Assembly: GCF_024359545.1 (NCBI RefSeq)
Contig: NZ_JAKQZG010000002.1
Coordinates: 310,001 to 374,000, forward strand
Direction: 5' to 3'
Length of the DNA stretch: 64,000 bases
DNA from: Jiella marina
Lineage (GTDB): Bacteria; Pseudomonadota; Alphaproteobacteria; Rhizobiales; Rhizobiaceae
Part shown: positions 32,786 through 48,285 of the stretch, one piece after another
Layout of the letters: each line of letters starts with the position of its first letter
Numbering within the stretch: position 1 is the stretch's first letter
Translations under genes and position numbers: made by a program
The notes under the pieces: generated by a model
What the model was told of the DNA's origin: nothing
The model's database searches: none
What the model saw: only the letters and a program-made list of their open reading frames with translations

Positions 32786-34237
32786 ATGTTCACGGACAAT
32801 CAGTCCGCGATCCGCCACGCCATAGCCGGCGGACACGACGTCGTTCAGGTTCTGGCCGACGGCGAGAGCGATCGGCAGATCGCGCGGGCGGTGGCCGATC
32901 TCGAAGCGGCCCTGCCCGAGCCGGAGGCGCTCACCGCTGCGGATGCCGCCATTCGCCGGATCGCGACCACGCCCGATTTCCATCCCGGCAAGCCGGTGCC
33001 TGTCGGCGTGGTCGTCGACGTAGAAGGCGCGATCCTGCCGCATCTCGTCGGCAACGACATCGGCTGCGGCATGCGGCTCGTCGTGCTCGACGGGCTGACC
33101 CGCGATGACATCGAGGCCGCCGGCGATCTCGAAGCCCATCTGCGCCACGTCTTCTTCCAGGGCGGGCGCGATCTCGCCATGACCGGGCGGGATCGCCGCG
33201 CCATTCTGGAGGCCGGCGTGCCGGGCCTGATCGAATCCCTCGAAAGCGGACAGCCGAAAGGCCTGCTCGCGCGCCAGTCGATCGCCGATCTCTGGCACGA
33301 CGCCGACCGCATGGCGGAGGCCGGGGTCTTCGAGAGCAAGGGGCTGGAGCCGGGCTTTGCTGATTACGGCCGGATGGACGATGACCACCGCCATGACGCG
33401 ATCATGGGCACGATCGGCGGCGGCAATCATTTCGTCGAGATCGGCGTCGTCGACGAGATCCGCGACGGCGCTTTCGCCAATCATTGCGGGCTGAAGGCCG
33501 GCACGGTCTGCCTCGTCGTCCATTCCGGCTCTCTCGATTTCGGCCAGCGGGTGGGCTCGACGACCGCCGAGAAGATGGCGGCAGAGCCCGGCGAGGGCGA
33601 TCGGCGGATCGTCTCCTTCGCGCACCGTCCGGCGCTTGCCGAGCGCTACCGGGTCGGTCTGGCGAACGCGACTAATGCCGCCTTCGTCAACCGGATGACC
33701 ATTGCCATGGCCGGTATCATGGTCATGGAGCGCGCGACGGGGCGGGAGATCCACGGGCGGCTCGTCTATGACGCGCCCCACAACGTGGCCTGGATCGATC
33801 CGTCCGGCGTGACCCGCCACCGCAAGGGGGCGTGCCCCGCGCGGGGATCGGACGCCATGGCGGGGACGCCCTATGCGTGGTTCGGCGAGCCGGTGATCCT
33901 GCCAGGCTCGATGGGCGACGGCACCTGGCTCTTGGTGGGCACCGGCCATGCGGCGACGCTGGAATCCTCGGCCCATGGGGCCGGCCGGCGCCTGTCGCGC
34001 GGCGAGGCGCGGCTCGAGGCGGTCGTTCCGGGTGCGTTGCGGGTGGTGGGGCCGGTCGATTTCGCCGCCCCGCAACTGGCGGGGCGCCGGGACGTGCTCG
34101 ACGATGCCGAGGCGAGGCTCCGCGAGGAGGCGCCCGGCGCCTATCGCCCGCTGGAACGGGTCGCCGAACCCATGGAGCGGGCCGGCATGGCCCGGCGGGC
34201 GGCCCGCATCCGGCCGCTCCTGACCGTGAAGGGCTGA
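32786..34237 (+). CDS. rtcB: RtcB family RNA ligase
   Basis: RtcB joins RNA 2',3'-cyclic phosphate or 3'-phosphate ends to 5'-OH ends using GTP and manganese. In this 483-residue protein the metal and GTP sites are visible: DVEGAILPHLVGNDIGCGM with Cys94, GGGNHF (211-216), HSGS (246-249), PHN with His332, HRKGA (345-349), PGSMGD (373-378), and HGAGR with His397, the expected guanylated histidine. HSGS is followed by Leu where most RtcB proteins have Arg. GGAG precedes the ATG. No rtcA cyclase, rtcR regulator or archease gene is near, so its trigger is unknown. Confidence 0.92.
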   Translation: MFTDNQSAIRHAIAGGHDVVQVLADGESDRQIARAVADLEAALPEPEALTAADAAIRRIATTPDFHPGKPVPVGVVVDVEGAILPHLVGNDIGCGMRLVVLDGLTRDDIEAAGDLEAHLRHVFFQGGRDLAMTGRDRRAILEAGVPGLIESLESGQPKGLLARQSIADLWHDADRMAEAGVFESKGLEPGFADYGRMDDDHRHDAIMGTIGGGNHFVEIGVVDEIRDGAFANHCGLKAGTVCLVVHSGSLDFGQRVGSTTAEKMAAEPGEGDRRIVSFAHRPALAERYRVGLANATNAAFVNRMTIAMAGIMVMERATGREIHGRLVYDAPHNVAWIDPSGVTRHRKGACPARGSDAMAGTPYAWFGEPVILPGSMGDGTWLLVGTGHAATLESSAHGAGRRLSRGEARLEAVVPGALRVVGPVDFAAPQLAGRRDVLDDAEARLREEAPGAYRPLERVAEPMERAGMARRAARIRPLLTVKG

Positions 34238-34276: not shown

Positions 34277-35161
34277 TCAGCCCTGGCCGGAAAGATGCCG
34301 GACGGCGATGGCGGTGGCGGCGGCGCGGTTTTCGACGCCGAGTTTGCGAAAGACGACTTCCAGATGCTTGTTCACCGTGCGCGGGCTGAGCTTCAGGATT
34401 TCCGCGATGTCGCGATTGGCCTTGCCGCGGGCCAGCCACAACAGCACTTCCGCTTCCCTTGCGGTGATGTTGAGATGGCCCTGCAGCGTCTCGATTTCCT
34501 GGCGGGAGCCCTCCCGGGTAATGCGCAGGAGGAACTCCTTCGGCCCCAGCCGGCCGATGACGGCCGCCGAGAGGTCCTGCGAAAGAGACAGCGTCGCGCC
34601 GATGCGCAGCTTGTCGGCTGAAACCGCAAGGGCCGCGTCATGGGCGTCCTCGTCGTCGGCGAGGAGTTCGCGCGCCTGGCGCGTCGCCCAGAGGATCTCG
34701 CCGGTGCCGTTGGTGGCGAAGAGATGCCGGCCCGTGGTGTCGAGCGCCATCTTGGTGCTGCGGCTGACCTTGGCGTTCTGGCTGTGGACGCCGATCCTCG
34801 CGACCAGTTCCTCGGGCTTGATCGGCTTGGTCACATAGTCGACGCCGCCGACGGCGAAGGCGCGCACGATGTGCTCGGTCTCGCTCAGGCCGGTCATGAA
34901 GATGATCGGAATGTCGGAGACCTTGTCGTTGGCCTTCATGCCCAGCGTGGCGGAAAACCCGTCCATGCCGGGCATGATCGCGTCCATCAGGATCAGGTCG
35001 GGCGCGGTGCGTTCGGCGATCGTGATGGCGCGGGCGCCGTCGGTCGCGACCAGCACCGACATGCCGTTGGCTTCGAGCGTCGCGACCAGGAAGCTCGCCT
35101 CCTCGGGCGAATCGTCGACCACCAGCACCACCAGCCCCGTCTCGGCCCGATCAGTCGCCAT
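34277..35161 (-). CDS. LuxR-type response regulator of the amide locus
   Basis: A 294-residue response regulator. The receiver domain has the acidic pair DD (16-17), phosphoacceptor Asp60 (LILMDAIMPGMDGF), the conserved Thr in FMTGLSE and Lys in VTKPIKPEEL. After a linker of about 100 residues (a PAS-like stretch, GEILWATRQARELL) the LuxR helix-turn-helix ends the protein (LNITAREAEVLLWLARGKAN, then SPRTVNKHLEVVFRKLGVEN). The ATG at 35161 overlaps the end of the hybrid kinase gene by 11 bases, so the two are co-translated and most likely form one phosphorelay acting on the divergent amide/urea genes. Confidence 0.9.
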   Translation of the reverse strand: MATDRAETGLVVLVVDDSPEEASFLVATLEANGMSVLVATDGARAITIAERTAPDLILMDAIMPGMDGFSATLGMKANDKVSDIPIIFMTGLSETEHIVRAFAVGGVDYVTKPIKPEELVARIGVHSQNAKVSRSTKMALDTTGRHLFATNGTGEILWATRQARELLADDEDAHDAALAVSADKLRIGATLSLSQDLSAAVIGRLGPKEFLLRITREGSRQEIETLQGHLNITAREAEVLLWLARGKANRDIAEILKLSPRTVNKHLEVVFRKLGVENRAAATAIAVRHLSGQG

Positions 35162-38100
35162 CCCCGTCTCCTTCGAGGATGCGGAGACAGGCGCGGAAGT
35201 CGAGGCGCTCGAGATGCTCGCGAAGTCGGCAGACCACGGGGCCGGCATCGGCCTGGCCGGTTGCGATAGCGTCGAGTTTTGCATGGATTCCCCTCACATA
35301 TCCGATGTCGAGCAGGGTGATCAGTTCGGCGCGATCGGCCTTGGACAGGCGCGTGCTGGCGGCCAGCTTCACCGCATCCTGGCCGCCGATCGGGGCGGGC
35401 GCTTCCTGGTTTTCGAAGCGCCATTTCACCGCGAGCGCACGGGCGATCACGTCGAGCAGGGCCGCGATCGACAGGGGTTTGGCGATCCAGTCGTCATAGA
35501 GATGGCGGTCGCGCGCCGGCGGGCGGGCACTCGCCGAAAGCATGACGATGGGAACGCCTGGGCTCTGCTCGCGCGCCGCCCGCGCGACCGCCCAGCCGTC
35601 GATGCCCGGCATGTTGATGTCGAGCAGGAACAAGTCCGGCTTGCAGAGCTTGGCCATGCGCAGGCAGGTCTCGCCGCCGTCGGCCGTCAGCACCTTGAAG
35701 CCGAGCGGCGTCAGGATCTCCTCGACCAGTTGCCGGTGCACCGGCTCGTCGTCGGCAGACAGGATCGTCAGGCGCGGGCCGTCATAGCCGACGATGCGCT
35801 GCTTCTTCTCCTCGGCCGCCGTATCGTCGGTCACCGAGCCCAGCATCAGCCGCACATGGAAGGCCGAGCCCTTGCCGAGTTCGCTTTCGACCTGGATGTC
35901 GCCGCCGAGGATTTCGGCGAACAGCTTGGTGATGGTCAGCCCCAGCCCCATGCCGGGCGTTGTGCGCGCGCCCTCGATCCGCTCGAAGGGCTCGAAGATG
36001 CGTTCGAGATCCGGCGCGGAGATGCCGGGTCCGGTGTCGATCACCGAGAAGCTGGCGATCTGGTTGCGGTAGCGCACCCGGAAGCGGACGCTGCCCGTCT
36101 CGGTGAACTTGATCGCGTTCGACAGAAGATTGATCAGGATCTGGCGCACCCGCTTCTCGTCGCCCCTCACATGGGAGGGCAGGAGGCCGTCGGCCTCGTA
36201 GACGAAGTCGAGCCCTGCATTGCCGGCCTGCAGGCGGAACATCTCGACGATCTGATTGAGAAGCTGGGCGAAGGAGAAGACGTCGTTATAGACCTCGATC
36301 TTGCCGGCCTCGATGCGCGAAATGTCGAGCAGCCCGTCGATCAGACCGGCCAGATGCTCGCCGCTGCGGCGGATGACGCTGAGGCCTTCGCGATGCTTGC
36401 CGATGGTGGCGGGATCGTCCTCCAGGATCTGGGCGAAGCCGAGGATCGAGTTGAGCGGGGTGCGCAGTTCGTGGCTCATGCCGACCACGAAGCGCGTCTT
36501 GGCGAGGCTCGCCGCCTCGGCCTTCTCCTTGGCGAGCTGCAATTCGGCGTCGGTCGCCTGGTGGGCCTCGATCTCCTGGGTGAGGAGCAGGGTCTGGCGG
36601 CTCGATTCCTCCTGCGCCACGCGCCGGCTTTCATGGGCGAGCACGAGCAGCCAGGAGGCGATGCCGATCAGGATGACCAGGACGATGAAGACCTGGACGA
36701 GGACGAGGGCCGAGGTTCCCGCATCCGCCTGCCGTGACAGGGTGGTCTGGAAATGGATGAGCGAGAGCGCCGCTGCGCTCAGCCCGATCAGGATGGTGAA
36801 GATCGCCAGATAATGCCCTTGAGGCGAATCGACGAAGGTCGCCAGCCGCTCCGACACGGCCCGCCGCAACCCGCCGACGATCTGTTCGCGCACCCGGCTG
36901 CCGGTCTTGCAGAGATCGTGGCAGCGCGCGTCGAGCGAACAACAGAGCGAACAGATCGGGCCGGAATAGGCCGGGCAGAAGGCCATGTCCTCGGGCTCGA
37001 AATGATGCTCGCAGATACAGCAGGCGATCGTCTCGAGCCCCGCCCAGTCCTGGCGCGGGCGCCGGGCGATGTAGAAGCGGCCGCGGGTCCACAGCGCGAT
37101 CAGCGGGGCGGCGAGGAACGCGGTAATCAGCGAGGCGTAGACGGCGAGCGCGGCGGCTTCCTCGCCGAAGAGGCCCGTGTGCAGGGTCACGCCGACGAAA
37201 ATGCCGGCGCCCATGGCTCCGAAGCCGACCGGATTGATGTCGTAGAGATGGGCGCGCTTGAACTCGATATGCCGGGGCGAGAGCCGCAGCGGCTTGTTGA
37301 CGACGAGATCGGCGCAGAGCGGCGCGACCCAGGAGACGGCGAGAATGGCATAGAGGCCGAGGATTTCCTCGAGCGCCTGCAGGATGCCCATTTCCATCAG
37401 CAGGATGGCGATGGCGACGTTGAAGACCAGCCAGACGACGCGGCCGGGATGGCTGTGGGTCAGGCGCGAGAAGAAGTTCGACCAGGCGATCGAGCCGGCA
37501 TAGGCGTTGGTGACGTTGATCTTCATCTGGGCGATGACGACGAACAGCGCCATCAGGACGAGCGCCAGCCCGGGATTGGCGAAGACGCGCTGGTAGAGCG
37601 CCTCGTACATGGCTGTCGGCTGCTGGGCGTACCAGGGCGCCGCACCCGCTTCGAGGAGAAGCACGGCGAGGATCGAGCCGAGGAGGATCTTGACGGCGCC
37701 GATCACGGTCCAGCCCGGGCCGCCGGCGATCAGCGCGCTCCACCAGCCGAGATGATGGCCAGGCTTGCGGCGCGGCAGGAAGCGCAGATAGTCCACCTGC
37801 TCGCCGATCTGGGCCGTCAGGGCGAACAGGATCGCCGAGGCGCCGCCGAACATCACCAGGTCGAAGCCGCCATCGCCGCCATTCACGCCGGGATAGGCGG
37901 CCCATTCGTCGATCGGCAGCTCGCCCCGCCAGGCGAGATAGGCGAAGGGCAGGAAATTGAGGGCGAGCCAGAGGGGTTGGGTGATGGCCTGGAACCGGCT
38001 GATCAGCCCGATGCCGAGGGTGACGATCGGGATAACCACCACTGCGGAGACGATGTAGCCGATCCACAAGGGCAGGGCGAACAGCATCTGCAGCGCCATC

Positions 38101-38513
38101 GCCATGATGGCCGCCTCGATCGCCAGGAAGATGAAGGTGAAACAGGCGTAGATCAGCGAGGTGACGGTGGAGCCGAGATAGCCGAAGCCGGCCCCGCGGG
38201 TCAGAAGGTCGATGTCGACGCCGTATTTCGCGGCGTTGTAGCAGATCGGCAGGGCGGCGGCGAAGATCATCACGCCGGTGACCAGCAGCGCGACCATCAT
38301 GTTGGTGAAGCCGTAGCTCAGGATCACCGAGCCGCCGATCGCTTCGAGCGCGAGGAAGGAAATGCCGCCGCAGGCGGTGGTCGCGATCTGGAAGGGGGTG
38401 AAGCGGCGCGCGCGCTTGGCCGTGAAGCGCAGCGCGAAATCCTCCAGCGTCTCGTCCGCGACCCACTGGTTATAGCTGCGGCGGACCCGCAGGATGCGTT
38501 GCGGGGCCGTCAC
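35151..38513 (-). CDS. hybrid sensor histidine kinase with NCS1-like permease sensor domain
   Basis: A 1120-residue membrane protein, start GTG. Residues 30-480 form a transporter of about 12 helices resembling the NCS1 purine/cytosine/allantoin permeases (RFTPFQIATTACGGISFLAL, KYGVDIDLLTRGAGFGYLGS). Next is a cysteine-rich block with nine Cys (498, 499, 501, 513, 521, 524, 525, 531, 535), two more helices (about 567-586, 600-626), and a coiled linker. The kinase has the DHp box with His681 (MSHELRTPLNSILGF), the ATPase motifs NLLSNA, DTGPG and GMGLGLTI. A receiver domain (about 915-1030) has Asp965 (LLDINMPGIDGW), and an Hpt-like tail follows. It is divergent from the urea/amide transporter operon. 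I infer that the permease part senses, or transports, the amide or urea ligand. Confidence 0.93.
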   Translation of the reverse strand: MTAPQRILRVRRSYNQWVADETLEDFALRFTAKRARRFTPFQIATTACGGISFLALEAIGGSVILSYGFTNMMVALLVTGVMIFAAALPICYNAAKYGVDIDLLTRGAGFGYLGSTVTSLIYACFTFIFLAIEAAIMAMALQMLFALPLWIGYIVSAVVVIPIVTLGIGLISRFQAITQPLWLALNFLPFAYLAWRGELPIDEWAAYPGVNGGDGGFDLVMFGGASAILFALTAQIGEQVDYLRFLPRRKPGHHLGWWSALIAGGPGWTVIGAVKILLGSILAVLLLEAGAAPWYAQQPTAMYEALYQRVFANPGLALVLMALFVVIAQMKINVTNAYAGSIAWSNFFSRLTHSHPGRVVWLVFNVAIAILLMEMGILQALEEILGLYAILAVSWVAPLCADLVVNKPLRLSPRHIEFKRAHLYDINPVGFGAMGAGIFVGVTLHTGLFGEEAAALAVYASLITAFLAAPLIALWTRGRFYIARRPRQDWAGLETIACCICEHHFEPEDMAFCPAYSGPICSLCCSLDARCHDLCKTGSRVREQIVGGLRRAVSERLATFVDSPQGHYLAIFTILIGLSAAALSLIHFQTTLSRQADAGTSALVLVQVFIVLVILIGIASWLLVLAHESRRVAQEESSRQTLLLTQEIEAHQATDAELQLAKEKAEAASLAKTRFVVGMSHELRTPLNSILGFAQILEDDPATIGKHREGLSVIRRSGEHLAGLIDGLLDISRIEAGKIEVYNDVFSFAQLLNQIVEMFRLQAGNAGLDFVYEADGLLPSHVRGDEKRVRQILINLLSNAIKFTETGSVRFRVRYRNQIASFSVIDTGPGISAPDLERIFEPFERIEGARTTPGMGLGLTITKLFAEILGGDIQVESELGKGSAFHVRLMLGSVTDDTAAEEKKQRIVGYDGPRLTILSADDEPVHRQLVEEILTPLGFKVLTADGGETCLRMAKLCKPDLFLLDINMPGIDGWAVARAAREQSPGVPIVMLSASARPPARDRHLYDDWIAKPLSIAALLDVIARALAVKWRFENQEAPAPIGGQDAVKLAASTRLSKADRAELITLLDIGYVRGIHAKLDAIATGQADAGPVVCRLREHLERLDFRACLRILEGDGDGD

Positions 38514-38856
38514 GGAGCCACTCTCGGGCGTGTCGTCGGCGCGGCGAGACTTGCGCCGGTTGGCGTTTCTCGCCTCGAAGAGACAATCAAGACGCGATCC
38601 CGCTCAGTTCGATCCCCTGTCGTCTTTGCGAAGGAAAGTTGATGTCCGCGCCAGTGCTTAGGAGCATTTCGGCGGCATCTGACGGTCCGTCGCGCAGGTC
38701 TTCAGACGGGAGTCTCGCCTGCTTCCTGCATCCAGAACATACGCATTTTGACGTATTGTTGCTCCGCAGCATCCGCCGCCATGCTCCCCCCTGTCAATCG
38801 CCGGGCTTCGCTCGGTTGGCAATCGTCCCGGCAACCCAATTCGACAGGGGGTTTTC
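38514..38856. other. divergent regulatory region between the hybrid kinase and the amide operon
   Basis: About 340 bases that must hold promoters for both operons. The clearest element is the inverted repeat ATACG-CATTTTGA-CGTAT at 38739-38756. No convincing sigma-54 element was found. No small gene is supported. Confidence 0.55.
38739..38756. promoter_or_regulatory. inverted repeat, candidate response-regulator operator
   Basis: ATACG and CGTAT flank an 8-bp centre; extended arms are AACATACG and (reverse complement) AACAATACG. It lies about 100 bp ahead of the transporter operon, a usual place for a LuxR-type activator site. Binding is inferred. Confidence 0.45.
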
Positions 38857-40128
38857 ATGAAAACCAACGACAAGGGCGCGGCACCGCGCTCGATGCTGCG
38901 CCGCAAACTGATGATCGGCTCCGCCGCTCTGGCGCTCTCTCTCGCCATGGCGCCGCGTCCCGGTCTGGCGCAGTCGCCGCCCACCAGCGAGGTCAACACG
39001 ACGGGTCTCGCCGTCACCGACGACACGGTCACGGTCGGCATTCTCCACTCGATCACCGGCACCATGGCGATCTCCGAGACCGGTTCGGTGCAGGCGGAAA
39101 AGCTCGCCATCGAACAGATCAACGAGATGGGCGGCGTTCTCGGCCGCAAGATCGAGTACATCCAGGAGGACGGCGCATCCGACTGGCCGACCTTCGCCGA
39201 AAAGGCCAAGAAGCTGCTGGTTCAGGACAAGGTCGCGGCGGTCTTCGGCTGCTGGACCTCGGCCTCGCGCAAGGCGGTGCTGCCGGTGTTCGAGCAGTAT
39301 AACGGCATGCTCTACTACCCGACCTTCTACGAGGGTCTCGAAGAGTCGCCGAACGTGATCTACACGGGCCAGGAAGCGACCCAGCAGATCATCGCCGGCC
39401 TCAACTGGGTGGCCGAGGAAAAGGGCGCCGAGACCTTCTATCTTCTCGGCTCGGACTACATCTGGCCGCGCACCTCGAACAAGATCGCGCGCAAGCATAT
39501 CGAGGACAAGCTGGGCCTCAAGGTCGTCGGCGAGGAGTATTACCCGCTCGGCCACACCCAGTTCAATTCGGTGATCAACAAGATCAAGCTCAGAAAGCCC
39601 GACGTGATCTACGCGATCGTCGTCGGCGGGTCGAACGTCGCCTTCTACAAGCAGCTCAAGGCGGCCGGCATCGACATGACCCAGGAAAAGCCGATCGTCA
39701 TGACGATCTCGGTGACCGAGGACGAGATCCGCGGCATCGGCGGCGAGAACATCGAGGGCGCCTACGCCACGATGAAGTACTTCCAGTCGCTCGAAAACGA
39801 GAACAACCAGGAATTCGTCTCCGCCTTCAAGGCGATGTGGGGCGAGGACATGGTCATCGGTGACGTCACCCAGGCCGCCTATCTCGGGCCCTGGCTGTGG
39901 AAGGCCGCGGTCGAAAAGGCCGGCAGCTTCGACATCGACAAGGTCCGGGAGGCCTCGCCGGGCATCGAGCTGACCACCGCGCCGGAAGGCTATGTCCGGA
40001 TCCACGAGAACCATCACCTCTGGTCCAAGACCCGCGTCGGCCACGCCAAGGCGGATGGCCAGTACGAGGTGGTCTACGAGACGACGGATCTGATGGAGCC
40101 CGATCCGTTCCCGGAAGGCTATCAATAA
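38857..40128 (+). CDS. urtA: urea/short-chain amide ABC transporter, substrate-binding protein (UrtA/FmdD-like)
   Basis: A 423-residue periplasmic binding protein with a twin-arginine-like or Sec signal (LRRKLMIGSAALALSLAMAP, cleavage near GLAQS). The mature part follows UrtA closely: VTVGILHSITGTMAISETGS, EDGASDWPTFAEKAKKLLVQ, and AAVFGCWTSASRKAVLPVFE with the tryptophan/cysteine block. The same family includes FmdD of Methylophilus, which serves amide and urea uptake. It is the first gene of an operon with permeases, ATPases and formamidase. A hairpin after the gene could keep its transcript more abundant than the rest. Confidence 0.92.
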   Translation: MKTNDKGAAPRSMLRRKLMIGSAALALSLAMAPRPGLAQSPPTSEVNTTGLAVTDDTVTVGILHSITGTMAISETGSVQAEKLAIEQINEMGGVLGRKIEYIQEDGASDWPTFAEKAKKLLVQDKVAAVFGCWTSASRKAVLPVFEQYNGMLYYPTFYEGLEESPNVIYTGQEATQQIIAGLNWVAEEKGAETFYLLGSDYIWPRTSNKIARKHIEDKLGLKVVGEEYYPLGHTQFNSVINKIKLRKPDVIYAIVVGGSNVAFYKQLKAAGIDMTQEKPIVMTISVTEDEIRGIGGENIEGAYATMKYFQSLENENNQEFVSAFKAMWGEDMVIGDVTQAAYLGPWLWKAAVEKAGSFDIDKVREASPGIELTTAPEGYVRIHENHHLWSKTRVGHAKADGQYEVVYETTDLMEPDPFPEGYQ

Positions 40129-40140
40129 GCCAACTAAGCT

Positions 40141-40170
40141 GGAGCCGTGCGGCACGGATCGCGCGGCTCC
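40141..40170 (+). terminator. hairpin after the binding-protein gene (partial terminator/stabiliser)
   Basis: GGAGCCG (40141-40147) pairs with CGGCTCC (40164-40170) across a 16-base loop, 13 bases after the stop codon. There is no T-run. Such hairpins after a binding-protein gene often raise its expression above the permease genes. Confidence 0.45.
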
Positions 40171-40218
40171 TTCCTGCCTCCAAGCCCTTTCCCGTCATGC
40201 TCACCTTCGGAGCATCCC

Positions 40219-41145
40219 ATGTTCGCGGACTACACCTGGAGCGAGCTCGGATCGATCTTCGCCATGCAGGGCTTTGCCGGCCTGGTCTTGTTTTCGGTCT
40301 TCGTGCTCATGGCCCTCGGCCTTGCCATCATCTTCGGCCAGATGGGCGTCATCAACATGGCGCATGGCGAGTTCATGATCCTCGGCGCCTACGTCACCTA
40401 CATGTGCTCGAACTTCTTCCAGAGCGCGGCGCCGGCGCTGATGCCGATCTCGTTCTTCGTGGCGATGGTCCTGGCCTTCTTCGCGTCCGGGGCGCTTGGC
40501 ATGCTGGTCGAGATGGGGCTCATCCGCTTCCTCTACAAACGTCCGCTCGACACGCTGCTCGCGACCTGGGGCCTGTCGCTCATCCTCCAGCAGACCTACC
40601 GCACGATCTTCGGCGCGCGTGAGGTGGGCGTCACGCTGCCCGACTGGATGATGGGTTCGCTCCCCCTGACCGATCTCGTCGAGATCCCGATCAACGGCCT
40701 GATCGTCATGGCGATCACCCTTTCGATCACGGTGGCGGTGGCGATCGTGATGTTTCGCTCGCGCTTCGGGGCGCAGGTGCGCGCCGTCGTCCAGAACCGG
40801 CAGATGGCCGGTGCCGTCGGCATCGACACCGAAAAGGTCGACCGTTTCACCTTCGGCCTCGGCTGCGGCATCGCCGGCGTGGCGGGCTCGGCCTTCACCA
40901 TGATCGGCTCGACCGGTCCGAGTTCGGGCCAGCTCTACATCGTCGACACCTTCCTCGTCGTCGTCTTCGGCGGCGCCACCAGCCTGATCGGCACCGTCGC
41001 CTCGGCCTTCACCATCTCCCAGGCCCAGTCGACCATGGAATTCTTCCTGTCCGGATCGATGGCGAAGGTTCTCACCCTCCTGACCGTGGTCGGCATCCTG
41101 ATGCTGCGCCCGCAGGGTCTCTTCGTCCTCAAAGTCCGCCGCTGA
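40219..41145 (+). CDS. urtB: urea/amide ABC transporter permease (UrtB/FmdE-like)
   Basis: A 308-residue inner-membrane permease of the LivH type. It has eight or so helices and the family motif LGLAIIFGQMGVINMAHGEFMI with later signature motifs GLGCGIAGVAGSAFTMIG and VVVFGGATSLIGTV. The starting ATG at 40219 comes after the hairpin and a short gap; the open frame to 40147 includes the hairpin and is not coding. It pairs with the next permease gene to form the channel. Next gene starts ten bases after its stop. Confidence 0.92.
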   Translation: MFADYTWSELGSIFAMQGFAGLVLFSVFVLMALGLAIIFGQMGVINMAHGEFMILGAYVTYMCSNFFQSAAPALMPISFFVAMVLAFFASGALGMLVEMGLIRFLYKRPLDTLLATWGLSLILQQTYRTIFGAREVGVTLPDWMMGSLPLTDLVEIPINGLIVMAITLSITVAVAIVMFRSRFGAQVRAVVQNRQMAGAVGIDTEKVDRFTFGLGCGIAGVAGSAFTMIGSTGPSSGQLYIVDTFLVVVFGGATSLIGTVASAFTISQAQSTMEFFLSGSMAKVLTLLTVVGILMLRPQGLFVLKVRR

Positions 41146-41155
41146 GGAGGCCGCC

Positions 41156-42292
41156 ATGACACCCATGCTCACATCCGCCAGGAAGACCGAACTCATCGGC
41201 TTCGTCATCGTCGCTGCGGTCATCCTCCTTCTTCTGCCGGCGGTGACCGACGCCTTCCGCCTCAACCTCGTCGGCAAATATCTGACCTACGCCTTTGTCG
41301 CCGTCGGCCTGGTGCTGTGCTGGGGCTCGGCCGGTATCCTCTCGCTCGGCCAGGGCATCTTCTTCGGCCTCGGCGGCTACTGCATGGCGATGTTCCTCAA
41401 GCTCGAGGCTTCGACCCCGGAGGCGACGAGCATCCAGTCGACGCCCGGCATTCCGGACTTCATGGACTGGAACCAGATCACCGCGCTGCCCTGGTTCTGG
41501 GAGCCGTTCCATTCCTTCGGCTTCACCCTCGTCGCCGTCGTCGTGGTGCCCGCGATCCTCGCCTTCATCATCGGCTTTGCGATGTTCACGCGGCGGGTCG
41601 GCGGCGTCTACTTCGCCATCATCACCCAGGCCATCGCCGCGATCCTAACCATCCTGATCATCGGTCAGCAGGGCTATACGGGCGGCGTCAACGGCATCAC
41701 CGATCTGCGCACGCTGCTCGGCTGGGACATCCGCACCGACTCCGCCAAGACGATCCTCTATTTCGTCAACGCCTTCCTGCTCCTGGCGGTGATCGCCCTG
41801 TCGATGGCAGTGCGCTCCTCCAAGCTGGGGCGCATTCTGGTGGCGCTGCGCGACAAGGAGGACCGGGTCCGCTTCTCCGGCTACGACGTCGCGGCCTTCA
41901 AGATCTTCGTCTTCTGCTTCGCCGCGGCGATCTCGGGCATCGGCGGTGCCATGTTCACCCTTCAGGTGGGCTTCATGTCGCCCTCCTTCGTCGGCATCGT
42001 GCCCTCGATCGAGATGGTGATCTTCTGCGCCGTCGGTGGTCGCCATTCGCTGATCGGGGCGGTCTACGGCACGCTGCTCGTCAACTGGGCGAAGACGAGC
42101 TTTTCCGAAAGCTTCCCCGAACTCTGGCTGTTCGCCATGGGCGCCCTGTTCATCGCCGTCGTCATGGCGTTCCCGAACGGTCTCGCCGGTCTCTACACCA
42201 GCCATGTCCAGCCGCTTTTCAAGCGGTTCGGCCGGAAATCTGCCGGCCGGTCCGCCGCAAGCGGCACCGAAACCCCCGCCATTGCCGAGTGA
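41156..42292 (+). CDS. urtC: urea/amide ABC transporter permease (UrtC/FmdF-like)
   Basis: A 378-residue permease of the LivM type. Family motifs are LVLCWGSAGILSLGQGIFFG near the N-terminus, and ITQAIAAILTILIIGQQGYT followed by GGVNGITDL. A third is LRDKEDRVRFSGYDVAAFKI, the EAA-like loop that touches the ATPase. GAGGAGG precedes the ATG. About 25 polar residues end the protein. It should pair with UrtB and be driven by UrtD and UrtE. Confidence 0.92.
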   Translation: MTPMLTSARKTELIGFVIVAAVILLLLPAVTDAFRLNLVGKYLTYAFVAVGLVLCWGSAGILSLGQGIFFGLGGYCMAMFLKLEASTPEATSIQSTPGIPDFMDWNQITALPWFWEPFHSFGFTLVAVVVVPAILAFIIGFAMFTRRVGGVYFAIITQAIAAILTILIIGQQGYTGGVNGITDLRTLLGWDIRTDSAKTILYFVNAFLLLAVIALSMAVRSSKLGRILVALRDKEDRVRFSGYDVAAFKIFVFCFAAAISGIGGAMFTLQVGFMSPSFVGIVPSIEMVIFCAVGGRHSLIGAVYGTLLVNWAKTSFSESFPELWLFAMGALFIAVVMAFPNGLAGLYTSHVQPLFKRFGRKSAGRSAASGTETPAIAE

Positions 42293-42304
42293 GGAGAGGC
42301 CGTC

Positions 42305-43051
42305 ATGACCACCAACAACGACTTTCTTCTCTCGGTCGAAGGGCTCACCGTCTCCTTCGACGGCTTCAAGGCGGTGGACGATCTGTCCTTCTACGTCGAC
42401 CCCAACGAAATCCACGTCATCATCGGCCCGAACGGGGCCGGCAAGACGACGGCGCTCGATCTGATCTGCGGCAAGACCCGCGCCACCTCCGGCTCGATCC
42501 GCTTCCGGGGCAAGGAACTGACCGAGATGAAGGAGCATCAGATCGTCCATGCCGGCGTCGGGCGGAAGTTCCAGAACCCTTCGATCTACGAGGACCTGAC
42601 GGTTTTCGAGAATCTGGAAATCTCCTTTCCGCGCGGCCGCAGCGTCTTCGGCGCGCTCGCCTTCAAGCGTGACAAGGAGGTGAGGGAGCGGGTGGCGGAG
42701 ATCGCCGAGATGATCTTCCTCGAAGACCATCTGGAGGAGCGGGCCGAATATCTCAGCCACGGCCAGAAGCAGTGGCTGGAGATCGGCATGCTGCTCATCC
42801 AGAACCCCGAACTCCTGATGCTCGACGAGCCGGTGGCCGGCATGAGCGTCTCGGAACGGGTGAAGACCGCCGAACTCCTCAACCGGATCATCCAGGGCCG
42901 CGCGGTCATCGTCATCGAGCACGACATGAAGTTCGTCGAGGACATCGCCCACAAGGTGACCGTGCTGCACCAGGGCAAGGTGCTCTCCGAGGGCTCCATG
43001 ACTCACGTGAAATCCGACCCGAAGGTCGTCGAAGTCTATCTCGGTCATTGA
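42305..43051 (+). CDS. urtD: urea/amide ABC transporter ATP-binding protein (UrtD-like)
   Basis: A 248-residue ABC ATPase of the LivG type. Walker A is GPNGAGKTTALDL, the Q-loop lies in VGRKFQNPSIYEDLTVFENL, the signature is LSHGQKQWLEIG, Walker B is LLMLDEPVAGMS and the H-loop VIVIEHDMKFVEDIA. The LivG class has the long insert after the Q-loop seen here (FPRGRSVFGALAFKRDKEVR). Twelve bases separate it from urtC and ten from urtE. Confidence 0.93.
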   Translation: MTTNNDFLLSVEGLTVSFDGFKAVDDLSFYVDPNEIHVIIGPNGAGKTTALDLICGKTRATSGSIRFRGKELTEMKEHQIVHAGVGRKFQNPSIYEDLTVFENLEISFPRGRSVFGALAFKRDKEVRERVAEIAEMIFLEDHLEERAEYLSHGQKQWLEIGMLLIQNPELLMLDEPVAGMSVSERVKTAELLNRIIQGRAVIVIEHDMKFVEDIAHKVTVLHQGKVLSEGSMTHVKSDPKVVEVYLGH

Positions 43052-43061
43052 GGACACCGCC

Positions 43062-43751
43062 ATGCTGAACGTCTCGGGTCTGCACGTCGCCTATGGATCG
43101 AGCGAGGTGCTGCACGGCCTCAACTTCAATGTCGCGCCGGGGGAGATCGTCGCGATCATGGGCCGCAACGGCATGGGCAAGACGACGCTCATGAAGTCGC
43201 TGATGGGGCTGGTGCCGACGAAATCCGGCCGGGTGAATGTCGATGGGGCGGACATCACCAGCGCCAAGAGCCACGAGCGGGTGAAGGGCGGGGTCGGCTA
43301 CGTGCCCCAGGGGCGGATGATCTTCTCCACCATGACGGTGCGGGAGAATATCGAGACGGGGCTCACCGTCACCGGCGAGACCGCGGTGCCGGGCGACATC
43401 TACGAGCTGTTTCCCGTGCTTCTGGAAATGAAGAAGCGCCGCGGCGGCAATCTCTCGGGCGGCCAGCAGCAGCAGCTCGCCGTCGCCCGGGCGCTCGCCT
43501 CGCGGCCGAAAGTGCTTCTCCTCGACGAGCCGACCGAGGGCATCCAGCCTTCGATCATTCGCGACATGGGCCGCACGCTGAAGAAGATCCGCGACGAGAA
43601 GGGCCTGTCCATCGTCGTCTCGGAACAGGTCCTCTCCTTCGCCCTCGACATCGCCGACCGGGTTCTCGTCCTGGAGAACGGCGAACTCGTCCATGACGAG
43701 CCGATCGCCGAAGTCGATGAGGCGAAGGTCGCCAAATACCTGTCGGTCTGA
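43062..43751 (+). CDS. urtE: urea/amide ABC transporter ATP-binding protein (UrtE-like)
   Basis: A 229-residue ABC ATPase of the LivF type. Walker A is GRNGMGKTTLMKS, the Q-loop VGYVPQGRMIFSTMTVREN, the signature LSGGQQQQLAVARALA, Walker B LLLDEPTEGIQPS and the H-loop is replaced by Gln (VVSEQVLSFALDIA), as is common in the LivF/UrtE class. It is the last transporter gene and is followed after 71 bp by formamidase. Confidence 0.93.
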   Translation: MLNVSGLHVAYGSSEVLHGLNFNVAPGEIVAIMGRNGMGKTTLMKSLMGLVPTKSGRVNVDGADITSAKSHERVKGGVGYVPQGRMIFSTMTVRENIETGLTVTGETAVPGDIYELFPVLLEMKKRRGGNLSGGQQQQLAVARALASRPKVLLLDEPTEGIQPSIIRDMGRTLKKIRDEKGLSIVVSEQVLSFALDIADRVLVLENGELVHDEPIAEVDEAKVAKYLSV

Positions 43752-43822
43752 CCGGCTCCCGTTCTCGCGGGCCCTTCGATCGACAGCTTCGTTCCCAAAA
43801 GCCGCCAAAGGAGTGAAACGGC

Positions 43823-45052
43823 ATGACCGACACATTGATCAAGGTCGACCTCAAGACCTCGCCCCACGACAACGAGATGGTCCACAATCGCTGGCATCCG
43901 GACATTCCGATGGCCTGCTGGGTGGAACCGGGCGACGACTTCAAGATCGAGACCTATGACTGGACCGGCGGCCAGATCAAGAACGACGATTCGGCCGAGG
44001 ACGTCCGCGACGTGGAGCTGGAGCAGGTCCACTATCTCTCTGGCCCGATCGGCGTGAAGGGCGCGGAACCCGGCGATCTCCTGGTGGTCGACATTCTCGA
44101 CATCGGCGCCAAGGACGACAGCCTCTGGGGCTTCAACGGCTTCTTCTCCAAGCAGAATGGCGGCGGCTTCCTGACCGAGCATTTCCCCGAGGCCCAGAAG
44201 TCAATCTGGGACATCGAGGGCATGTTCACCAAGTCCCGTCACGTGCCGGGCGTGCGCTATGCGGGCCTGATCCATCCGGGCCTCATCGGCTGCCTGCCGA
44301 GCCGCGACATGCTGGACATGTGGAACACCCGCGAAAAGGCGCTGTTCGACACCGATCCCGAGCGCGTTCCGCAGCTTGCGGCCCTGCCCACCACCCAGTC
44401 CGCCCACATGGGCAAGATGAAGGGCGAGGCCCGCGACAAGGCGGCGGCCGAAGGCGCGCGCACCGTGCCGCCGCGCGAACATGGCGGCAATTGCGACATC
44501 AAGGACCTGTCGCGCGGCTCGAAGATCTATTTCCCGGTCTACGTCGACGGCGCCGGGCTCTCCATGGGCGATCTGCACTTCTCCCAGGGCGACGGCGAGA
44601 TCACCTTTTGCGGCGCGATCGAGATGGCCGGCTGGCTGCATCTGAAAGTCACGCTGATCAAGGACGGCATGGCGAAATACGGGATCAAGAACCCGATCTT
44701 CCGCCCTTCGCCGATCGCGCCGAAATATGACGACTACCTGATCTTCGAAGGCATTTCCGTCGACGAGGCCGGCAAGCAGCATTATCTCGACGTCCACATC
44801 GCCTATCGCCAGGCCTGCCTCAACGCCATCGAATATCTGAAGAAGTTCGGCTTCTCCGGCGCCCAGGCCTATGCGATCCTCGGCACCGCGCCGGTGCAGG
44901 GGCATATCTCCGGCGTGGTCGACATTCCGAACGCCTGCGCGACGCTCTGGCTGCCGACCGACATCTTCGAGTTCGATGTCATGCCCGGATCGGATGGGCC
45001 GACCAAGTTCCTCGACGGCTCCATCGACGTGCCGCTCGCCAAGGATCTGTGA
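43823..45052 (+). CDS. fmdA: formamidase FmdA (acetamidase/formamidase family)
   Basis: This 409-residue enzyme should hydrolyse formamide (and perhaps other short amides) to ammonia and formate. Family motifs are DWTGGQIKNDDSAEDVRDVE, GPIGVKGAEPGDLLVVDILD, the central HGGNCDIKDLSRGSKIYFPV, then GAGLSMGDLHFSQGDGEITF and CGAIEMAG. GGAG stands nine bases before the ATG. The pairing with a Urt/Fmd-type ABC importer and FmdB is the fmd operon layout known from Methylophilus, so the imported substrate is likely a short amide. No urease genes are in the window. Confidence 0.95.
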   Translation: MTDTLIKVDLKTSPHDNEMVHNRWHPDIPMACWVEPGDDFKIETYDWTGGQIKNDDSAEDVRDVELEQVHYLSGPIGVKGAEPGDLLVVDILDIGAKDDSLWGFNGFFSKQNGGGFLTEHFPEAQKSIWDIEGMFTKSRHVPGVRYAGLIHPGLIGCLPSRDMLDMWNTREKALFDTDPERVPQLAALPTTQSAHMGKMKGEARDKAAAEGARTVPPREHGGNCDIKDLSRGSKIYFPVYVDGAGLSMGDLHFSQGDGEITFCGAIEMAGWLHLKVTLIKDGMAKYGIKNPIFRPSPIAPKYDDYLIFEGISVDEAGKQHYLDVHIAYRQACLNAIEYLKKFGFSGAQAYAILGTAPVQGHISGVVDIPNACATLWLPTDIFEFDVMPGSDGPTKFLDGSIDVPLAKDL

Positions 45053-45060
45053 GGCGATCG

Positions 45061-45393
45061 ATGCCCTTCTACGACTATGCCTGCGACGATTGCGGGCCCT
45101 TCACCAGCCTGCGCCCCATGGCGCAGGCTTCCGAGCCCTGCGATTGCCCCGCCTGCGGGGAAAGCGCCCGGCGGGTCATCCTGACGGCGCCGCGCCTGTC
45201 GATCATGGACGGGGCCAAGCGCTCGGCCTTCGCCACCAACGAGCAAAGCGCCAACGCGCCAAAACTCGCCTCGAAGGGGCATGGCGCCGGGTGCAGTTGC
45301 TGCGGACCGGCCCGGCCGAAAGCGGCGACGACCGCCGCACCGCTGGCGGCCAAATCCTTCGCCGGAAAGCGGCCGTGGATGATCAGTCACTGA
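45061..45393 (+). CDS. fmdB: FmdB-type zinc-ribbon protein
   Basis: A 110-residue protein starting MPFYDYACDDCGPFTSLRPM. The two C-x2-C knuckles (CDDC and CPAC) form the zinc ribbon typical of FmdB, a protein first seen as a putative regulator of formamidase expression. A second cysteine group, CSCC, lies near residue 82. GAGGCGATCG precedes the ATG at 45061; an earlier in-frame start at 45049 overlaps fmdA by four bases and is less likely. It closes the operon, before a terminator-like hairpin. Confidence 0.88.
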   Translation: MPFYDYACDDCGPFTSLRPMAQASEPCDCPACGESARRVILTAPRLSIMDGAKRSAFATNEQSANAPKLASKGHGAGCSCCGPARPKAATTAAPLAAKSFAGKRPWMISH

Positions 45394-45510: not shown

Positions 45511-46554
45511 TCAGCGGAAGCGGACCGGAACCGTGAGCGAAACGCGGCGGCGGTTCGGGGGCGCCGGGAACGGACTCGCCCGTCTGACCAGCGAGACCGC
45601 TGCAGAATCCAGCGCCCGACTCCCGCTCGAGCCGGTGACACGGGCGCCGAGGACACGGCCGTTTCCATCCATGGTGAAGGCCACGCGCACCGTGCCGCGA
45701 CCGCCGCCCGCGGGCGTGCGCTTGTAGCGGTTGAGCCGCGCCTGCACCCGCGACTGCCAGGAGGCTATGGCCGCGCGTGACACCTGCGCTCCTTGCGAGG
45801 CCTTGCGCTGGCGCTGACCCTGCGAGGCCGCCGAGGGAGCCGGAGAGCGACGCTGCTGGCGCGCGGCCTCCTTCTTGCGGGTCTGCCGTTTCTGGGCGGT
45901 GGCCTTCTTCCGCTTCGGGGCAGGCTGCGCCGTCTGCTTCTTCCGCGGCTCGCGCTTGACCTCCCGCACCGGCGGGGGCGGATCCGGCCGCGCCGTCGGG
46001 ATCGGCACATTGGCGACGGCGGTCGCTTCCGGCGGTTCCGGAGCGGCGACGGGCAGCGGCACCTCGTCGGGCGGGGGAGCGACGCTCTCCTGTGGTTGCG
46101 GGGCAGGTTCCGGTTCGGCGATGGGCTCAGGTTCGGGCTCGGCGACCGGTTCGGGGACAGGCTCCGGCTCCGTGACAGGCTCCGGCGGCGTCTCGGGCTG
46201 CGGCTCGGCCACCGGTTCCGGCTCGGGCTCCGGCGTTGGTTCCGGCTCGGGTTCGTCGGGGGGCGGTGGCGCCTCGTCGACGGCCGGTTCCGGCGTGTCG
46301 ATCGGCTCCGGGGCCGGTGCGGCCTGATCCAGCGCTGCCACTTGCTCGGAGGCCGCCGGCGGGGCGAGATCGATCAGGATCGGGGCCGCCGGGGCACCCT
46401 GGGGCGGGCTGTCAGGACTCTGGGACATGATCGCATAGGCCGCCGTGCCATGGGCGAGAAGCACGACCAGACCCGCCACGAGCCAGCGGTGACCGCCGGC
46501 GAACCGGGATGAGCCGCCGTGTATGTCGAAGCCGCTTGGGGGTCGCGACGCCAT
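45511..46554 (-). CDS. tonB: energy transducer TonB
   Basis: TonB transmits proton-motive energy from ExbBD to outer-membrane siderophore receptors. The 347-residue protein has one N-terminal membrane anchor ([20 protein letters not shown], with the conserved histidine). A long proline/glutamate-rich periplasmic spacer follows ([12 protein letters not shown] type repeats, about 75-185), then a lysine/arginine-rich part. The C-terminal TonB domain has [40 protein letters not shown] and a final SLTVPVRFR. No TonB-dependent receptor gene is in the window. It follows exbD by five bases. Confidence 0.94.
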
Positions 46555-46559
46555 GTCCG

Positions 46560-47039
46560 TTACTCGCCAGCCGTGGAGCCCGGCGCCGAAGCCGCTTCGG
46601 CGGCGGACTGCTGCGCCTGGGCCGGGTCTTCGAGCCCCACCAGCGCGATCTTCAGATAGCCCGAGCGGCGCAGGAGGTTCATCACATCCATGATGTCGGA
46701 ATAGGGAACGGCGCCGTCGGCGCGCAGGAAGATGCGTTCCTCGTGATCGGCTTCCGTCAGCCCGTCGAGCCGGCTGGCGAGCGCCTCGCGGGCGACCGGG
46801 TCCTCGCCCAGCGTCAGGGACAGATCCTCCTGGACGGTCAGATAGACCGGCTCGTCCGGCCGTTCCTGCGGTTCGGCATTGGAGGTCGGCAGGTCGACCG
46901 GCACGTCGACCGTGGAAAGCGGCGCCGCCACCATGAAGATGATCAGAAGCACCAGCATCACGTCGATGAAGGGCGTGACGTTGATTTCCGAGAGCTCGCC
47001 GGTCGCGTCGTCGTCGCCGCTGTTCAGATTGACGCCCAT
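46560..47039 (-). CDS. exbD: TonB-system biopolymer transport protein ExbD
   Basis: ExbD is the small stator subunit. The 159-residue protein has the family start [20 protein letters not shown], then [20 protein letters not shown], the single helix with the essential aspartate. The periplasmic domain follows ([20 protein letters not shown] and [20 protein letters not shown]). It lies seven bases after exbB and five before tonB. Confidence 0.95.
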
Positions 47040-47046
47040 TTTTCCG

Positions 47047-48285
47047 CTACTCCGCCGCTTGCGCCAGGGGGACGTTGCGATCGCGATGAAGCCGCTCGCG
47101 CTCCAGGTCGCGGGACAGATGCTGCATGACCAGAGCCGAGGCGTCCGACAATACCGCCTTGTAGCCGGCGATCGACCGGGCGAAGACGTTGTAGATGATC
47201 ACGGCCGGGATCGCGGCGACGAGGCCGATCGCGGTGGCGAGCAGCGCTTCGGCGATGCCCGGCGCGACCACGGCGAGATTGGTGGTGTTCGCCTCCGAGA
47301 TGCCGATGAAGGAGTTCATGATTCCCCAGACGGTGCCGAACAGACCGACGAAGGGGGCGGTCGAGCCGATCGTGGCGAGGAAGCCCGTACCTCGCGCGAT
47401 CGAACGACCGGCATGGGCCTCGATACGGGCAAGCCCCATCGCCACCCGCTCCTTGACCCCGTTGGCCGACAGGGCGCCCGAACGGGTGTGCTCGTATTCG
47501 GCGGATTTCGCCAGCGCCGCGACCGGGCCGCGCCAGCGTTTGGCCTGACGTTCGCTGCCGATCGCCTCCGATAGCGATCCCGCTTCGGCGAGGCGCTTCA
47601 CGCCGGAGCGCGCGCGCCATTTGGCCAGCATCACCTCCAAGCCCTTCACCAGAAGGATCGTCCAGGTGACCAGGGAGGCGAGCGCCAGCCCGATCATCAC
47701 GCTCTTCACCACCCAGTCGGCGGCCATGAACATGCCCATCGGCGAAAGATCGTGGGGCAGCCGCACGTCCCGGTCATCGCCCGTGACCGGGTCCGGGTTC
47801 GCGGTTCCCGGCACGGGGGACTCCTCCGCCTCGGATGCGGTGCCTTCGGCCGAACCCGACCCTGCCGCGCCAGCACCCGCCGATGCTGCGTCGGACGGGT
47901 TTTCCGAAGCCGAGCCGACGGCGCTGCCGGCAGCCGCGTCTGCGGTGCCCTCGCTCGCCGTGCCGCCTTCGGCAGATGGCGTTTCGCCAGGAGACGCCGC
48001 CGTACCGGCGGGCGCCGGCTCGGCGCCGGCGGGCGTGACCGTCTCCTGATCGGAGTTGTCGGAAGCCCCGGAGGCCGCTTGCGCTGGGCGCACCCGCTCG
48101 CTGGTTTCGCCTGCAGAGGAATCCGGGGCCGCGGTCTCGGGGCCGGCGGCCTCTGTCGCCGACGTTTCGGGCTCGGGCGTTCCGGTCTGCGCCATCGCGG
48201 CGCCGCTGGTCAGGGCGCCCCAGGAAAGTGCAAAGGCCAGCAGGAGAGGCCCGAAGCGGGTCTGGTGGGCGGAAGAAAGTGTCAT
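47047..48285 (-). CDS. exbB: TonB-system proton channel protein ExbB
   Basis: ExbB forms the proton channel with ExbD. The 412-residue protein has a signal peptide ([20 protein letters not shown]), an extended alanine/serine/glutamate/glycine-rich periplasmic segment of about 130 residues. The MotA/TolQ/ExbB domain follows: [40 protein letters not shown], and [20 protein letters not shown]. The long low-complexity segment is typical of alphaproteobacterial ExbB. It is the first gene of exbB-exbD-tonB, with an iron-operator candidate upstream. Confidence 0.95.

Follow-up and report, generated by a model that had tools for sequence, protein, structure and literature searches.

Which signal does a histidine kinase with a transporter for a head perceive, and which genes does it control? 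The question is raised by a locus in Jiella marina, within a stretch of 64,000 nucleotides (contig NZ_JAKQZG010000002.1, positions 310,001 to 374,000) that we refer to throughout as the window. Here, a hybrid kinase of 1120 amino acids (aa) and its partner response regulator lie divergent from the genes for an amide/urea importer and a formamidase. We consider that the pair is probably (about three chances in four) a two-component system in which a receptor of transporter origin, for urea and/or short-chain amides, activates the importer–formamidase operon. The original prediction had proposed much of this arrangement from the sequence; it was silent on an eight-cysteine module and two extra helices in the kinase, and on an inverted repeat in the intergenic region (38740-38755), all of which figure prominently below. 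The features are as follows, in window coordinates:

34277..35161, minus strand: partner response regulator, receiver and LuxR-type helix–turn–helix (HTH; GerE) by Pfam; revised start
35151-38513, minus strand: open reading frame (ORF) of the hybrid kinase, GTG start, 1120 aa; by Pfam, HisKA at residues 671-737, HATPase_c at 784-891 and a single receiver at 917-1023
35445..36503, minus strand: HisKA, HATPase_c and receiver of the hybrid kinase (Pfam)
36603..36824, minus strand: two further helices, residues 564-637, leading from the cysteine module to the kinase (predicted structure)
36909..37022, minus strand: eight-cysteine module, residues 498-535, C-x2-C-x11-C-x7-C-x2-CC-x5-C-x3-C
37071..38513, minus strand: kinase head, residues 1-481, divergent NCS1 type (hhalign and Foldseek; no Pfam match)
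38740..38755, no strand assigned: predicted operator TACGCATTTTGACGTA, inverted repeat ATACGY-N6-RCGTAT (from the repeat in homologous intergenic regions)
38780..38785, plus strand: predicted -10 element CATGCT of the urtA promoter (column conservation)
38857..40128, plus strand: urtA, periplasmic binding protein of amide/urea type (TIGR03407 above cut-off)
40147..41145, plus strand: urtB, permease (TIGR03409 above cut-off)
41156..42292, plus strand: urtC, permease (TIGR03408 above cut-off)
42305..43051, plus strand: urtD, ATPase (TIGR03411 above cut-off)
43062..43751, plus strand: urtE, ATPase (TIGR03410 above cut-off)
43823..45052, plus strand: fmdA, formamidase (NF045496 equivalog, 778.8 bits against a cut-off of 500)
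45049..45393, plus strand: fmdB, FmdB-type zinc ribbon protein (NF053663 and TIGR02605 above cut-off)

The transporter-headed kinase and its partner

The kinase ORF is as originally proposed, with HisKA, HATPase_c and receiver domains. The nature of the head was less accessible. Residues 1-481 were unmatched in Pfam at E 10, as were residues 1-638 in NCBIfam, the SSF model of Pfam gave no match, and PF02133 matched none of 47 aligned heads at E 1; the family models for NCS1 (PF02133 and TIGR00800) thus do not recognize the head. Single-sequence searches of Pfam, NCBIfam and the Protein Data Bank (PDB) having returned nothing, profiles and folds were compared instead. Against the PDB, a profile made from the head alignment yielded chance matches only. 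Compared by hhalign (one comparison per family, without a database), the head profile aligned with 26 PF02133 proteins at a probability of 98.6% (E 6e-15, head-alignment columns 1-501), and with 21 SSS proteins at 0.1%, which speaks against an SLC5/SSS head. The structure predicted from the 47-head alignment is a many-helix domain (mean pLDDT 79, pTM 0.81), for which the first five Foldseek matches in the PDB are all NCS1 proteins (Mhp1 and CodB; E 6e-8 to 4e-7, TM-scores 0.46-0.51 by query length); SSS and other LeuT-fold structures rank behind these. The head profile also matches a PF02133 protein of another genome (4e-7), and a free-standing permease, L245, bridges the two families: it is matched by the head profile (4.8e-44), PF02133 (3.6e-9) and TIGR00800 (2.5e-16). 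By profile comparison and predicted fold, then, the head is a divergent NCS1-type permease. This bears out the proposal of an NCS1-like permease as the sensor part, even though no transporter model of Pfam or NCBIfam matches it. The closest head outside the J. marina genome, 89% identical, is that of Jiella sonneratiae (Aurantimonadaceae).

Between permease and kinase lie eight cysteines at near-fixed spacing, followed by two helices. All eight are invariant in the 47 aligned heads. The module occurs in every one of 115 ORFs picked out by the head motif TRGAGFGY, and a further 32 ORFs have it without that exact motif. Pfam finds no significant family in the module, and in the 200 residues from 472 to 671 it finds weak, unrelated matches only (E 0.003 or worse), in a library whose content of a STAC model was unchecked. 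Foldseek aligns the isolated module mainly with zinc-binding fingers (RING, FYVE and PHD), all non-significantly (E 0.43 or worse). The module is likely to bind metal. The same head, module and helices also occur on a second kind of kinase, NtrB-like and without a receiver (L241:8254-10911 and L242:8275-10959); both of these adjoin a gene with receiver, HisKA and HATPase domains, and fmdA is in the same locus.

The partner regulator has the receiver and GerE HTH of a LuxR/NarL-type protein. Its listed ORF start, at 35284, is probably too early, the true start being the ATG at 35161, which gives MATDRAETGLVVLVVDDS and makes the regulator gene overlap the kinase ORF by 11 bases. Overlaps of similar size occur between kinase and regulator in many relatives. 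A relative of the regulator is present at 76 of 80 kinase loci in one sample and 52 of 56 in another.

The first of these samples comprises the best 80 of 235 relatives in genome contigs. It supplied the head alignment, made of 46 of its loci plus the window; L049 was left out on account of a stop codon, and L055, L067, L071, L078, L083, L084 and L087 were dropped untested. To avoid the bias of best matches, a second sample of 398 genomes drawn evenly from Pseudomonadota was searched, 57 of which gave a match. Five were removed: three weak matches (G095, G248 and G429, the first two being ordinary NCS1 proteins), a kinase without permease (L246, in G341) and a fragment (G290). Fifty-two of the 398 genomes, that of the window included, thus hold a kinase with most of the head. 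The even sample provides 56 kinase loci, not counting the window (L245-L248 lie outside the 56, and G095 and G290 are not among them). The samples overlap little—two of the 56 heads are identical over residues 100-500 to a best-80 locus or the window—and contain many close kin. As controls we took 20 stretches of 20 kb at round coordinates in 13 carrier genomes, which is not a random draw. Census thresholds were set by us.

Linkage to urea and amide genes, and a shared inverted repeat

In the window, the context of the importer is a formamidase. The divergent urtABCDE-fmdA-fmdB operon was confirmed: all five subunits of the UrtABCDE/FmdDEF-type importer, like fmdA, pass the curated NCBIfam cut-offs, fmdB matches zinc-ribbon models, and the two fmd genes overlap by four bases. 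Elsewhere, urt, fmd, amiE or urease genes accompany the kinase at 54 of the 56 even-sample loci, and the two without them (L196 and L243) are both cut by contig ends; such genes occur in none of the 20 control stretches. In the best-match sample, the flanks contain urt, fmdA, amiE or urease genes at 61 of 80 loci (fmdA at 34). The original prediction would have failed had homologues of the kinase lacked such neighbors, and these counts show that they do not. Among five genomes with two kinases, four (G212, G279, G299 and G431) have one copy beside fmd genes and the other beside urease genes; G147, the fifth, has both beside fmd, one being an NtrB-like kinase without receiver. On a tree of the family (quick method, long branches; rows with neither context omitted), fmd and urease contexts are clustered, with five changes between them. 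We regard the tie of the two-component pair to urea and amide genes as firm in the fmd-type branch and as good in the branch with urease. Another duplicate was seen in Methylotuvimicrobium buryatense, where a second family copy (L050:19467-21905, cut by the locus end) lies ~10 kb from the first.

The intergenic regions suggest how this tie might be exercised. TACG-N8-CGTA is found in 64 of 74 regions between the kinase and a divergent fmd-type urtA (61 of 71 distinct ones). When spacings of 3-13 were scanned, none but 8 occurred in more than one region, and in 500 trials of block shuffling the repeat was found in a mean of 0.22, and at most two, of the 74. The fuller form, ATACGY-N6-RCGTAT, is newly put forward here as the probable operator of these regions. 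Nine places in the J. marina genome read TACG-N8-CGTA. Two fit Y-N6-R, and only the one in the window (38740-38755) combines this with the A/T-rich center typical of the family. Kinase loci of the even sample contain 48 sites in 1.08 Mb (39 of the 56 have at least one), compared with one in the 400 kb of control stretches. A consensus scan of 38500-38870 for a sigma-70 promoter found none. Counting from the start of the repeat in 56 distinct sequences, column 41 is A in 37 and column 45 is T in 40, conservation of the kind expected of a -10 element, and this places the repeat at about -52 to -37.

The repeat is not confined to the kinase–urtA region. It occurs 95-109 bases before a stand-apart fmdA in five loci (L033, L198, L202, L206 and L213), at or within the start of an over-long fmdA ORF in three more (L214, L215 and L216), at amiE in L033, a Halomonas, and before a canonical urtA in ten urease-type loci (L073, L079, L081, L083, L086, L218, L223, L225, L231 and L233). 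Sites were also sought throughout eight genomes in which the kinase is unlinked (L059, L061, L063, L089 and L090) or its flank has no repeat (L042, L066 and L074). Eight of 12 inspected sites, in seven of the eight genomes, precede urtA. In L089 and L090 the repeat stands before a urtABCDE-ureD operon on a contig other than that of the kinase, whose own locus has no such neighbors. In L059 and L063 a second kinase adjoins a urt-ureD operon with the repeat, and in L042, L066 and L074 the repeat-bearing urt-ureD operon probably forms the distal part of the kinase's own cluster. Since one inverted repeat precedes urt, fmdA and urt-urease promoters, the regulatory target originally proposed gains support. 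In two urease-type gammaproteobacteria, a porin-like gene (Porin_O_P; L288:7249-8415 and L289:4798-5961) intervenes between repeat and urtA; it recalls FmdC.

As for the surroundings in J. marina, RtcB (32786-34237, plus strand) flanks the regulator gene, and TonB- and ExbB/MotA-type genes (45511-48285, minus strand) follow fmdB on the opposite strand. A weak urease-alpha match (PF00449; 52652-52774, minus strand) falls within a 458-aa frame that is probably some other amidohydrolase. No Rfam family is present in the window. Urease, and further UrtA-like proteins (42% and 38%), are encoded on other contigs of the genome.

Ligand, signaling route and competing explanations

The mechanism we propose runs as follows. 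The NCS1-type head would bind, and perhaps carry, urea and/or a short-chain amide, and its conformational change would reach the kinase by way of the cysteine module and the pair of extra helices—a route we offer as a proposal. Phosphate would then pass to the LuxR-type regulator, which would bind ATACGY-N6-RCGTAT some 52 to 37 bases before the start of urtA transcription and activate the importer–formamidase operon. In relatives, the same pair may act on fmdA, amiE or canonical urt-urease operons. Urea and short amides suggest themselves as ligands because they are the common denominator of the fmd and urease contexts, and because one free-standing relative lies among amidase genes: L245 adjoins a carbon–nitrogen hydrolase, an AmiR_N/ANTAR protein and a Peripla_BP_5 protein, the last of which we take to be AmiC-like. 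Free-standing relatives of this sort are rare: queried with the L245 permease, the 398 genomes yielded the kinases, L245 itself and two further proteins, 24-27% identical (E 1e-20).

Several observations weigh against this reading. The homologues are related, so the counts of linkage and of repeats are not independent. The best 80 include eleven Azospirillum kinases without urea or amide neighbors (the rest of the 19 unlinked loci being six whose flank is short on one or both sides, and L089 and L090 with full flanks). The repeat is missing from 10 of the 74 intergenic regions, four of them within one base of it. Among loci without fmd-type genes, only 20 of 60 have it in the flank; at fmd-type loci the figure is 66 of 76. 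In a few of the 20, the repeat sits inside a gene or is GC-rich; in several loci without fmd-type genes, urtA itself lies beyond the flank. The 12 sites inspected in the eight genomes were chosen, for palindromy, from 38. In L061 (Azospirillum), both inspected repeats (L283:6205 and 10079) flank a DctM-type TRAP transporter gene, with no urt found there; this gene is a possible other target of the repeat. Another NCS1 ligand, finally, is also compatible, given that one Streptomyces relative of the head, with no amide genes annotated around it, is annotated ‘allantoin permease’.

That last point leads to the most serious rival, in which the pair does control these genes, the head senses a nucleobase-like compound such as allantoin, hydantoin or a pyrimidine, and the urea and formamide genes serve its downstream degradation. 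Typical NCS1 proteins, to which the head is related, carry compounds of this sort, and the annotation of the free-standing Streptomyces relative points the same way. Yet where common neighbors were recognized in the 136 loci, they belong to the urt, fmd, amiE and urease groups. Families present in at least five loci (most of these families being unannotated) included no recognized purine or allantoin genes, and sequence motifs frequent among the heads (FLALE-type in 106 of 115, QIGEQ in 98 of 115, KINVTN-type in 102 of 115) are found in none of 26 ordinary NCS1 proteins. We regard a nucleobase-like ligand as unlikely. Of the ligands originally suggested, urea and amides fit both contexts; purine-derived ureides are supported by no recognized neighborhood, and the Streptomyces annotation is the sole hint of them. 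Somewhat less likely still is that the cysteine module senses an internal metal, redox or nitrogen state, with the permease a mere anchor. Eight conserved cysteines would suit such a sensor, as would L246 (8956-10812), a 618-aa hybrid kinase that has no permease head, adjoins a relative of the regulator, and retains only the two helices and a short stretch with cysteines. Strong conservation of the head, with invariant polar residues in its predicted helices, does not fit a mere anchor, though, and since two free-standing Streptomyces permeases end with the first five cysteines, the module seems to be part of the permease tail. Conserved polar positions of the head include E57, E133, E238 and K331. 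That kinase and operon simply hitch-hike in one gene cluster, with no regulatory bond, might be thought from the occurrence of relatives on plasmids, but the repeat precedes urt or fmdA even where these are apart from the kinase, and four of the five two-kinase genomes keep one copy per pathway; we consider this very improbable.

On our main reading, a widespread bacterial sensor probably switches on the uptake and breakdown genes for urea, formamide and similar small amides that lie beside it, by way of the conserved repeat. A bolder version, which we hold tentatively and at somewhat short of even odds, is that the family is an undescribed class of transceptor: an NCS1 carrier would serve as urea/short-amide receptor in many Alpha- and Gammaproteobacteria, its carrier cycle, read through a metal-binding eight-cysteine tail, would drive the kinase, and duplication around one common operator would have split an ancestral system into formamide and urea–urease branches.

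Relatives on plasmids and comparison with known systems

At E 1e-50, relatives of the head turn up in 520 of 72,556 plasmid records, 340 of them from Klebsiella. Four were opened, one of which has no annotation. Two are the Streptomyces plasmids, whose free-standing relatives are 39-40% identical. The sole Klebsiella record opened, a conjugative K. pneumoniae plasmid (L314; NZ_CP058359.1 59087-82985), has the kinase, annotated merely as an ATP-binding protein, divergent from urtABCDE-formamidase, with the repeat in between. The cluster appears to be the UrtABC-AmiF urea transport cluster discussed for Klebsiella lineage CG307 in a preprint (PMC13060141; this and the other PMC sources cited are drawn on for part of their text), in the available part of which the words ‘histidine kinase’ are absent. 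The transporter-headed kinase is a candidate for its control. In Sinorhizobium meliloti strain ml59 (L315, pSymB), kinase and regulator lie beside urtABCDE and dct genes, and the repeat precedes urtA. A PhaR-site string printed for SMb20609, 95 bases upstream (PMC12542648), also occurs 95 bases before the L315 kinase, which makes the S. meliloti member SMb20609/SMb20610. SMb20609 is listed there as a histidine kinase of unknown function under PhaR control. The locus has the same kinase and regulator family as the window, whereas its urt genes are canonical, not fmd type. By position, we take these for SMb20602-SMb20605. Along with genes for nitrate transport, SMb20602-SMb20605 go down in a tolC mutant, by 12- to 25-fold (PMC2912261).

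That a kinase can have a transporter for a head is known: CbrA, CrbS and RpuS have SLC5 heads, and an ammonium sensor has an Amt head. The NCS1 head joins these. Among the matches listed in a literature search, with most subscription journals outside its scope, we found no NCS1-headed kinase, no kinase regulating urt or fmd, and no function for the family. With the SLC5/STAC kinases, the pair in the window shares the kinase domains and a response regulator partner. CrbS/CrbR comes closest, combining a transporter-headed hybrid kinase, a LuxR-type partner and an imperfect inverted repeat, the ACTU motif of CrbR, at -52 to -36 (PMC5715377), near the position predicted for ours. It differs in its SLC5-STAC head, its acetate genes and its repeat; the window kinase has an NCS1-like head, the eight-cysteine module and two helices, and, within the scope of the Pfam search given above, no STAC match. 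CbrA/CbrB, called a rare transceptor (PMC13022988), likewise fuses transporter to kinase, but the transporter is an SLC5 histidine transporter, STAC and PAS domains are present, and the targets are others. RpuS/RpuR of Sinorhizobium fredii resembles our system in that a transporter-headed kinase governs an uptake gene (PMC9100948), and differs in its SLC5/STAC head and its target, a pyruvate symporter. The J. marina genome itself may hold a kinase of the SLC5-headed kind, a 1177-aa frame at L126 with a weak SSS-domain match (G000:C23:71956-72243). The ammonium sensor kinase of Kuenenia stuttgartiensis joins a transporter domain for a nitrogen compound to a histidine kinase (PMC5764959), with an Amt/Rh head instead.

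On the side of the target genes, amides have been argued to be the cargo of the fmd-type importer blr0968-blr0973 of Bradyrhizobium japonicum (PMC3098086). The fmdCABDEF genes of Methylophilus methylotrophus, like those of the window, combine a formamidase with a binding-protein-dependent importer for short-chain amides and urea, and are induced by formamide and urea (PMC10781810). In the part of that source drawn on here, a putative positive regulator is named, in contrast to the window, without a transporter-headed kinase, and the induction is reported without a sensor. The kinase family described here is a candidate for that sensor, and the operator stated above makes the candidate directly testable, SMb20609/SMb20610 of S. 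meliloti included.

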